Below, in pieces: positions 4,978 through 6,670 of a stretch of 64,000 nt of DNA. The DNA is from Salinibacter sp. 10B. GTDB lineage: Bacteria > Bacteroidota > Rhodothermia > Rhodothermales > Salinibacteraceae. Where the stretch lies: contig NZ_MQWC01000004.1 in NCBI RefSeq assembly GCF_002954405.1, positions 780,065-844,064 on the forward strand, written 5' to 3'. The position numbers were made by a program, and so were the translations under genes. The notes below the pieces were generated by a model, which saw only the letters and a program-made list of their open reading frames with translations, was not told where the DNA came from and did no database searches. Position 1 is the stretch's first letter, and each line of letters starts with the position of its first letter.

Positions 4978-5023
4978 CGTCTGGTCCTACCGCCCCTTGC
5001 TCCTCTACTGCCTCCCTCCGCTG

Positions 5024-5500
5024 ATGCTTATCCGCTTCCTTCCCGTCCTGCTCCTATTCGGCCTCACGTTCGGCTGTACCTCGAACGAAACTGAATCGGA
5101 GACCAAAGACCTGTCCTTCCAGGAAGGCACCCTTGCGTTCGTCCAACCGAACGGCGACACGCTGACGACCATTGCCCTCGCAATTGCGGACTCGGATGCT
5201 GAACGCACGCGGGGGCTCATGCGACAACGCTCCCTCGGCTATGAGCGTGGCATGCTCTTTATCTTCGACGCAGTGGACACGGGGGGAATGTGGATGCGCA
5301 ACACCCCTCTCCCGCTTGACATCGTATTCGTGGCCCCGGACTCGCAGGTCATCAACATCGCCCGCCGTACAACGCCGTTTTCCGAAAAGACCATTGAGCC
5401 GGACGGGCCCCGAAAGTTCGTCGTCGAGGTGCGTGCAGGCTTCGCCGACCGTTTTGGTCTTACGGATAGCACCCGGGTGCGCTGGACCCGCACCCCGTAG
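5024..5500 (+). CDS. DUF192 lipoprotein (copy 1)
   Basis: The 158-aa product starts with a short hydrophobic leader ending in a lipobox (LTFGC), so it is likely lipid-anchored and faces the periplasm. The mature part is a single DUF192 domain: LTTIALAIADSDAERTRGLM, then RGMLFIFD, MWMRNTPLPLDIVFV and VVEVRAGFADRFGL. DUF192 is a small beta-barrel fold of unknown function. I chose the ATG at 5024 over a TTG at 4997 because it gives a compact signal peptide. A paralogue follows 35 bp downstream, clearly a tandem duplication. Confidence 0.85.
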   Translation: MLIRFLPVLLLFGLTFGCTSNETESETKDLSFQEGTLAFVQPNGDTLTTIALAIADSDAERTRGLMRQRSLGYERGMLFIFDAVDTGGMWMRNTPLPLDIVFVAPDSQVINIARRTTPFSEKTIEPDGPRKFVVEVRAGFADRFGLTDSTRVRWTRTP

Positions 5501-5535
5501 GGGTGTGTGCCGCTCGGCTCCTATCGTTTCTCCCT

Positions 5536-6072
5536 ATGACTTTTGCCTCGCCTCTGCTCATGGCCCCTCCGAAAGTGTTCCTCCCTCTTCTCCTGGCCTT
5601 CTCGATCATCCTCGCGCCAGCGTGCTCGACCGACAATGGCGAGGACGCCCCGTCCGCCTCCTCAGACACGACGTCCATTCCCTTCGACAACGAAGGACAG
5701 CTCGCCTTCGTGCAAGACCGTGACACGCTCGTTCTGATCGATCTTGAGATTGCTGAATCCGATTCTGCCCAAAAGCGGGGCATGATGCAGCGCGAAGGAT
5801 TTCCGAACGAGACGAGCGGCATGCTCTTTCCATTCGACGAGGAGCGAAAACGAAGCTTCTGGATGGCGAACACCCCCCTCTCCCTCGACCTCTTCTTTAT
5901 CAGCGCCGACTCGCAAATTGTGCGCATCAAGAAGTACGCACAGCCGAACAGTGCGACCTCCATCCCCTCCCAGGCTCCGGCCCAATATGTGCTCGAAACC
6001 GGCGCCGGCTTTGCCGACAGCTACGGCATCGTGGAGGGTGACCGCGTGCGATGGCGTCGAACCGACGAATGA
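5536..6072 (+). CDS. DUF192 lipoprotein (copy 2)
   Basis: This 178-aa paralogue of the preceding gene has a hydrophobic leader with a lipobox-like LAPAC and one DUF192 domain (LVLIDLEIAESDSAQKRGMM, SGMLFPFDEE, FWMANTPLSLDLFF, YVLETGAGFADSYGI). A later ATG at 5560 would still leave a good signal peptide. The two copies keep the same order of motifs but have diverged strongly between them, so the duplication is old. No downstream gene follows in this direction before the tRNA-Leu. Confidence 0.85.
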   Translation: MTFASPLLMAPPKVFLPLLLAFSIILAPACSTDNGEDAPSASSDTTSIPFDNEGQLAFVQDRDTLVLIDLEIAESDSAQKRGMMQREGFPNETSGMLFPFDEERKRSFWMANTPLSLDLFFISADSQIVRIKKYAQPNSATSIPSQAPAQYVLETGAGFADSYGIVEGDRVRWRRTDE

Positions 6073-6394: not shown

Positions 6395-6670
6395 TGCCCC
6401 AGGTGGGACTCGAACCCACACGGTGCGTGTGCACCAACGGATTTTCGTCTCACTCCGGCTTTCGCCAATCTGTGAGCTGGACTTTCTCTTCGTCCCGAAT
6501 GCCGTCGGGACGCTCCCCGTCAAGTCTCTGCACCTTCCCGTTCGGGCTTGGCTCAGGGTTGCCATTTTACAGGGTCCCCTGAATTTGAGGAGCATCATTC
6601 CAATCGTTGCCGACTGGACGCTCAAGGTCTTCCTCAAGTCCGTTGCGTCTACCAGTTCCGCCACCGGGGC
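6395..6670 (-). tRNA. tRNA-Leu(UAA) interrupted by a group I intron
   Basis: The 5' exon runs 6670-6636 (acceptor GCCCCGG, D-arm, anticodon stem ACGGA, then C-T-T) and the 3' exon 6445-6395 (AAAA, stem TCCGT, long variable arm GGTGC/GCACC, T-arm GTGGG-TTCGAGT-CCCAC, acceptor CTGGGGC, discriminator A). Joining them gives the loop CTTAAAA and anticodon TAA in an 86-nt tRNA with the class II variable arm expected for Leu. CCA is not encoded. The break lies between positions 34 and 35, exactly as in the cyanobacterial and plastid tRNA-Leu(UAA) intron. Confidence 0.93.
6446..6635 (-). other. Group I intron (190 nt) in tRNA-Leu(UAA)
   Basis: Conserved group I core elements appear in order on the minus strand: a P segment with AATTCAGGGGACCCTG (6570-6586), a Q segment AACCCTGAGCCAAGCC (6545-6560), an R segment GTGCAGAGACTTGACGG (6517-6533) and an S segment AAGAGAAAGTCC (6479-6490). 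P1 forms between exon CTT plus intron GAGG and the guide CCTTGAG, placing the obligatory U-G wobble at the 5' splice site. The intron ends in G. There is no homing-endonuclease reading frame and no room for one. At 190 nt it is compact compared with the usual 250-300 nt of cyanobacterial relatives (subgroup IC3). Confidence 0.93.

Follow-up and report, generated by a model that had tools for sequence, protein, structure and literature searches.

A compact group I intron splits tRNA-Leu(UAA) of a Salinibacter at the classic position, with relatives across bacteria, phages and a plasmid

Group I introns in bacterial tRNA genes were attributed in a 2014 review mostly to cyanobacteria, with a few cases from alpha- and betaproteobacteria (PMC4033280), and the intron in tRNA-Leu(UAA) is ascribed to cyanobacteria and plastids (PMC4476775, PMC4033280). 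The latter is a textbook example of an ancient intron that predates plastids and has been retained ever since. Introns in tRNA-Ile2 and tRNA-fMet are also described (PMC8450103), and an interrupted tRNA-Leu-TAA gene was reported in two giant sulphur bacteria (PMC4853749). Compact examples occur in tRNA-Ile(CAU) of Azoarcus and tRNA-fMet of Synechocystis. Among the titles and abstracts we searched, with most subscription journals outside the search, none reported a tRNA-Leu(UAA) intron in Salinibacter or Rhodothermota.

To this background we add a real group I intron of Salinibacter sp. 10B, which occupies the classic position in tRNA-Leu(UAA). It lies in a stretch of 64,000 nucleotides that was analyzed as a whole (the window), and an earlier note on this DNA had proposed a short, compact intron without an ORF splitting a tRNA-Leu gene. 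The coordinates given there proved exact (Table 1). The covariance-model search matched the intron to RF00028 over the full length of the model (positions 1-253) with 58.3 bits (cut-off 50 bits; E 3.2e-12; Rfam release 15). This was the sole RF00028 match at the cut-off in the window, and the sole one at E 0.001 in the 4.75-Mb genome. When joined, the exons gave a canonical tRNA-Leu(UAA) with an ARAGORN score of 124.6, and a cut after position 34 was the best solution among the splice pairs tried (T/.../G), with 116.8 for the runner-up. The insertion point is thus between U34 and A35, as proposed, which is the site of the tRNA-Leu(UAA) intron family. Additionally, the 277-nt precursor folded better than its shuffled versions (z = -3.6; 1 of 200 shuffles was equally good). 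ARAGORN without the intron option missed this tRNA gene of the window; with introns allowed it placed a split tRNA at these coordinates, named it tRNA-Ser(GGA) and chose another splice point. No homing endonuclease ORF is found in the intron, which at 190 nt is too short for one, and the ORFs of at least 100 aa that overlap it continue through the exons into the flanking DNA, with nothing to mark them as genes.

Table 1. Coordinates of the split tRNA-Leu(UAA) gene and of the elements of its intron, as positions of the window.
Feature	Position	Strand	Details
tRNA-Leu(UAA) gene, split	6395-6670	-	Salinibacter sp. 10B
tRNA-Leu(UAA) 5' exon, ends at U34	6636..6670	-	joined exons score 124.6 in ARAGORN
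Group I intron, 190 nt, without own ORF, terminal G at 6446	6446..6635	-	RF00028, 58.3 bits
tRNA-Leu(UAA) 3' exon, A35 to discriminator base	6395..6445	-	CCA not encoded
P1, exon CUU and intron GAGG with internal guide CCUUGAG (CUU/GAGG...CCUUGAG); U.G at 5' splice site	6621..6638	-	
P2, 7 pairs, GCAA loop	6600..6617	-	all 7 pairs covary
P3 5' strand, partner 6512-6516	6589..6593	-	drawn from the window sequence
P4-P5; P4 = 6577-6582 with 6553-6558	6553..6582	-	P4 99.5%, P5 53% of cells paired
P7 5' strand, partner 6480-6483	6523..6526	-	invariant in 36 of 36
P8	6492..6511	-	63% of cells paired
P9 stem CUCAC/GUGAG and inner GAAA hairpin	6449..6476	-	94% and 99%; one outer hairpin pair 20%

Beside the tRNA gene, two adjacent and related ORFs (window positions 4997-6072, + strand) are about 42% identical over 163 residues; they are putative DUF192 proteins.

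The core helices P3, P4, P6, P7 and P8 occur in the correct order in the window intron, and the P3/P7 pseudoknot is present. The structure was drawn from the window sequence, and its pairs were counted in an alignment of 36 tRNA-Leu(UAA) introns from many bacteria, chosen out of 92. Over these 36 introns, 86.9% of 1,869 cells were paired, and 40 of the 53 pairs had changed on both sides. The covariation score was 0.437, compared to 0.150 in shuffled alignments, none of which reached it in 500, and it did not exceed 0.128 when the structure was slid. The P1 helix with its U-G splice-site pair and the terminal G, both named in the earlier note, are present, and the U.G pair was found in all 36 aligned introns; an exon 1 ending in U and a terminal G were imposed by our search for relatives, the G partner of the U was not. 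P7, which we take from knowledge of the family to be the guanosine-binding helix, never varied, so that the alignment documents its presence with no covariation. The inner pairs of P8 failed in many relatives, whose P8 helix has other lengths.

The intron of the nearest sequenced relative (genome G439) differs from the window intron at 18 of 204 aligned positions (8 exon bases on each side included). Six of the seven changed pairs stay paired, two of them by double changes, and one is broken; random placement of the same changes broke 7.8 pairs on average, with 0 of 5,000 trials as low as one. A comparison of two introns of the S. ruber group was less clear-cut (six changed pairs, three paired in both and three not), and the three unpaired ones sit in one helix drawn from the window sequence. 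Judged by these substitution patterns, the structure of the window ribozyme is under selection. Its P5 loop is short, and P5(a-d) is described as absent from subgroup IC3 (PMC11835236). On this ground and on the alignment with cyanobacterial introns, IC3 would be a candidate label for the window intron. A family model trained on the 36 introns (R1) gave the window intron 187.6 bits, which is no independent test because the window intron is among the training members.

The earlier note associated this intron chiefly with cyanobacteria and plastids, not with Rhodothermota or Bacteroidota. This supposed rarity was not borne out: the type strain of S. ruber, DSM 13855 (G147), and at least 11 other named Bacteroidota loci carry it, and its presence there is therefore not exceptional. 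In G147, the first 8,000 bases of a 35,505-bp second contig match the S. ruber DSM 13855 plasmid NC_007678.1, which has this same length, without a difference, and this places the window in Salinibacter as the genus is delimited in the genome database. The intron is patchy within Salinibacter. Among 13 genomes of the genus, six carry it (G000, G439, G147, G195, G199 and G434), six have the anticodon arm uninterrupted, and in the remaining genome (62% complete) neither form was found. Across the 27 genomes of the family, the corresponding numbers are 7, 15 and 5; the seventh intron-bearing genome is G442, and the five with neither are 56-67% complete. The whole tRNA was read in 14 of the 15 uninterrupted cases, and in G427 the arm was recognized by pattern only. 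On a GlgC tree of 22 family genomes, the presence of the intron needs three changes, or two without G442; this is a one-gene tree that was searched quickly, and 5 of its 19 branches are unresolved. The window species and G439 have introns of 190 and 188 nt and identical tRNA exons, unlike those of the other family members read; in the S. ruber group the intron measures 194 nt and the exons are different. The flanks of the tRNA gene differ between most species of the family, with or without the intron, and are so different that insertion into a resident gene and replacement of the gene are indistinguishable.

In the order as a whole (114 genomes), 73 genomes have the exact uninterrupted anticodon arm and eight a Leu intron at the same site, with one genome (G239) having both. 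R1 matched in 40 of the 114 genomes, compared to 31 with the Rfam model. At its cut-off, the Rfam model missed all six of the tested loci in which R1 detects an intron. The tRNA hosts in the order include tRNA-Arg(UCU), split after 34 in S. ruber and its relatives, and tRNA-Leu(UAA), split after 33, and in one family tRNA-Arg(UCU) split after 36, a CAU tRNA and tRNA-Lys(UUU). For hosts other than Leu, tied ARAGORN scores leave the name of the isoacceptor provisional. The pattern behind the finding is one of tRNA introns repeatedly gained or lost within Rhodothermales, together with the same intron site in phages, plasmids and at least eight phyla.

Several of these loci deserve mention on their own. 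In S. ruber DSM 13855 and relatives, tRNA-Arg(UCU) is split after 34 by introns of 210-279 nt (L462, L463, L464, L466, L467 and L468), and the Rfam model at its cut-off was silent on all four loci of this kind tested; in the window genome, tRNA-Arg(UCU) is uninterrupted. One family (f7) has up to three tRNA introns per genome, in tRNA-Arg(UCU) after 36, a CAU tRNA after 33 and tRNA-Lys(UUU) after 34 (L005, L008, L023, L044, L045, L047-L051 and L054-L067; isoacceptor names provisional). Two genomes (G183 and G451) carry a tRNA-Leu(UAA) intron one base upstream, after 33 (L477 and L478). No split tRNA was found at 14 further group I matches (L002, L007, L017, L018, L024-L027, L029, L033, L052, L053, L470 and L475).

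More widely, we searched one genome per species (84,980 species) with a sequence pattern modelled on the 3' ends of tRNA-Leu introns, which imposed the last intron G and the start of exon 2, left the end of exon 1 free among T's and favours compact introns. It found at least 119 stretches. Of 80 that were fetched, 74 are tRNA-Leu(UAA) genes split after 34 (at least 74 overall), and in the other six the match lies at most 180 bases from the end of the fetched DNA, with the 5' exon outside reach. Among the matches listed, eight phyla are represented (Pseudomonadota 45, with 31 alpha, 12 gamma and 2 beta; Bacteroidota 11; Cyanobacteriota 8; Acidobacteriota 4; Bacillota 3; Bdellovibrionota, Chloroflexota and Planctomycetota 1 each), and these counts are not frequencies, since the pattern favours compact introns and the matches listed are a minimum. 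Many of the 74 come from metagenome-assembled genomes and are named by their record titles. The suggestion of transfer or a wider spread in the earlier note agrees with this distribution, in which the intron is patchy in Salinibacter and occupies one and the same site in at least eight phyla. The idea of an intron unique to the window lineage was dropped, as same-site introns were found in other bacteria.

The wider family shows signs of mobility. Eight of the 74 listed Leu introns are 677-733 nt long, and the longest frame of each matched Pfam HNH endonuclease families (E <= 0.01), five at or above the curated Pfam cut-off (L229, L239, L240, L272 and L275) and three below it (L235, L264 and L295). 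The frame of L235 also matched the phage HNH family phrog_10822 (E 8e-48). Four of the eight frames run sense and four antisense to the intron, and two more introns, of 314 and 384 nt, contain no HNH-like frame. Split tRNA-Leu(UAA) genes are further carried by the 735-kb phage genome LR756501, with an intron of 205 nt, and by the conjugative Bradyrhizobium plasmid CP094621, with one of 204 nt. Among 80 viral contigs with the core pattern, 24 have a split tRNA, nine of these being tRNA-Leu(UAA), two of them identical; the other 56 loci gave no split tRNA, and some may lie in protein genes. In a 2014 review, phage group I introns are known only from protein genes (PMC3984707). The viral hosts were tRNA-Leu(UAA), tRNA-Arg(UCU), tRNA-Asn(GUU), tRNA-Lys, tRNA-Gln and others (L108, L111, L114, L116, L121-L124, L128, L129, L135, L140, L145, L146, L152, L154-L156, L158, L159, L165, L169, L170 and L175).

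Within the order, G239 has a split tRNA-Leu(UAA) gene besides its uninterrupted copy. The split copy (L487) lies on a 21-kb contig (G239:C38) with 45% G+C, compared to 59% at the uninterrupted copy, and the contig encodes a type IV coupling protein (best plasmid match 32% identical), a type III restriction-modification system and a Schlafen AlbA_2 protein. The contig may be an integrative element or misbinned, and it is therefore not counted as evidence on the host lineage. Taken broadly, the tRNA-Leu(UAA) intron would carry an HNH homing endonuclease in some lineages and travel with whole split tRNA genes that phages, conjugative plasmids and integrative elements transport, and the introns of cyanobacteria and plastids and of Salinibacter would be a few of many separate settlements, a picture for and against which we see the chances evenly balanced.

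The place of the window intron in this spread was examined in three trees. The first, on a MAFFT alignment of 102 rows, contained 92 Leu introns and 10 introns of other tRNAs. The second, also based on MAFFT, had 87 rows, i.e., the same set without those 10 and without five long-branch introns (L280, L247, L156, L232 and L292). The third, on a model-based alignment, likewise had 87 rows, which are 91 matches less L464, L468, L280 and L296. Its starting set left out six introns of 677-697 nt with matches in two pieces (L229, L235, L240, L264, L272 and L275), L146 as a duplicate of another viral row, and those introns of other tRNAs that had been used earlier. It added L469, L462, L464, L466, L468, L477 and L478, although L466 was not matched. 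The one-clade tests below concern groups that were named with the first tree already known.

Direct acquisition from cyanobacteria finds some support in these trees. The window and G439 introns joined eight cyanobacterial introns with a support of 96/94 in the MAFFT 87-row tree, and joined cyanobacterial introns together with two introns of another tRNA in the 102-row tree (92/95). In the model-based alignment the grouping costs only 1.1 log units (p = 0.49), and cyanobacteria share hypersaline mats with Salinibacter. However, the grouping is weak in the model-based tree itself, where it reached 49/94 and included a third intron, and outside the genus BLAST places introns of Alphaproteobacteria nearest to that of the window. 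The trees also bring long branches together, so that joins of this kind are often false. We consider a direct cyanobacterial source unlikely. As the three trees disagree on the place of the window intron, any firm donor claim was rejected.

Somewhat less probable still is old vertical inheritance, in which the ancestor of Salinibacter, or that of the entire order, had the intron and its descendants lost it many times. A published account for cyanobacteria does describe one acquisition followed by several losses (PMC4476775). One clade of the six Salinibacter Leu introns was not rejected (p = 0.33 in the MAFFT 87-row alignment; p = 0.17 in the model-based one), so that one early gain with later losses within the genus is compatible with the trees, and neither was one clade of Salinibacter and G442 (p = 0.29, model-based). 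Against a deeper ancestry, a clade of Salinibacter, G442 and G239 was disfavoured (p = 0.026, model-based; p = 0.069 without G442, MAFFT 87-row), though for groups named post hoc, and one clade of all Bacteroidota-side introns (20 of the 87 rows) was rejected (p = 0.005, MAFFT 87-row). The G239 intron lies inside the Alphaproteobacteria in all three trees (100/97 in the MAFFT 102-row, 95/91 in the MAFFT 87-row and 96/91 in the model-based tree). The predominance of uninterrupted genes in the order likewise speaks against many losses from an intron-bearing ancestor.

Horizontal gain is the preferred reading, and it concerns a needed tRNA gene. Among the 47 tRNA matches in the genome (45 outside the window and two, both Arg, within it), none has the anticodon UAA. 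Leu tRNAs with the anticodons CAA, CAG, GAG and UAG occur once each among the 45. Thus, an intact second tRNA-Leu(UAA), which together with a missing covariance-model match the earlier note had named as grounds against its reading, was looked for and not found in the genome, and an unsplit copy making the intron dispensable was dropped as an explanation. UUA is rare yet used in this G+C-rich genome, where it makes up 18 of the 14,952 codons counted in 34 ORFs of the window that were chosen for their length and not verified as genes. A tRNA with the anticodon CAA does not read UUA. With no other UAA tRNA, the split gene should therefore be spliced. That the intron is decayed and unspliced in a dispensable gene, as the rarity of UUA might suggest, is hardly credible, given that the gene is the sole tRNA for UUA, the core is intact and pairs were kept by compensatory change since the split from G439.

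All parts needed for splicing are present and conserved in the window intron, and it presumably splices unaided in its host. From what holds for its family, it is almost certainly a functional group I ribozyme. The precursor would fold after transcription, and a free external guanosine, bound in P7, would attack behind U34 at the U.G pair of P1. The freed 5' exon would then attack behind the terminal G, and the joined exons would become the only tRNA reading UUA. These steps are established group I chemistry, as generally known and as reviewed (PMC3984707). Very probably, then, the locus holds a working compact ribozyme in the sole tRNA-Leu(UAA) gene, a member of the family at the cyanobacterial and plastid site, that was gained horizontally and not by unbroken descent. 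Its arrival would date at the latest to the ancestor of the window species and G439. Its likely route is either homing, with the endonuclease lost since, or the transfer of an entire split tRNA gene by a phage, plasmid or integrative element.

With the intron in a sole and needed tRNA, patchy within a genus and present in at least eight phyla, on a phage and on a plasmid, its age and route become a question that a dense tree can answer. We consider the wider spread the interesting part, including the introns in other tRNAs that the Rfam cut-off misses. Since ARAGORN without introns and the Rfam cut-off can miss such genes, annotated genomes may seem to lack these tRNAs.

The cyanobacterial and plastid tRNA-Leu(UAA) intron is the closest known system. 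It shares with the window intron the same tRNA, the cut after U34, the U.G pair of P1 and the same core, and the insertion site was correctly assigned to this class in the earlier note. The cyanobacterial members, to which our comparison refers, are alignable with the window intron, and one alignment and one model cover both. The window intron is shorter (190 nt vs 221-266 nt in the eight cyanobacterial loci listed), has a shorter P6 loop than four aligned cyanobacterial rows and a different P9 stem, and sits in a lineage other than cyanobacteria; a recent common origin with the cyanobacterial intron is a candidate only. The introns of Alphaproteobacteria (at least 31 loci) and other bacteria have the same site and a similar length, but the window intron differs from the alphaproteobacterial ones in having its own P1/P2 and P9 stem and no supported sister relation to them in the model-based tree. 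The S. ruber intron, at the same site and in the same genus, is 194 nt long and has the core in common, whereas 67 of 201 aligned positions differ (8 exon bases on each side counted) and the exons differ as well. Other bacterial tRNA introns, such as those of Azoarcus, of Agrobacterium, where tRNA-Arg(CCU) carries a group I intron, and of Synechocystis, are likewise compact group I introns in the anticodon loop, but in other tRNAs and at other positions.
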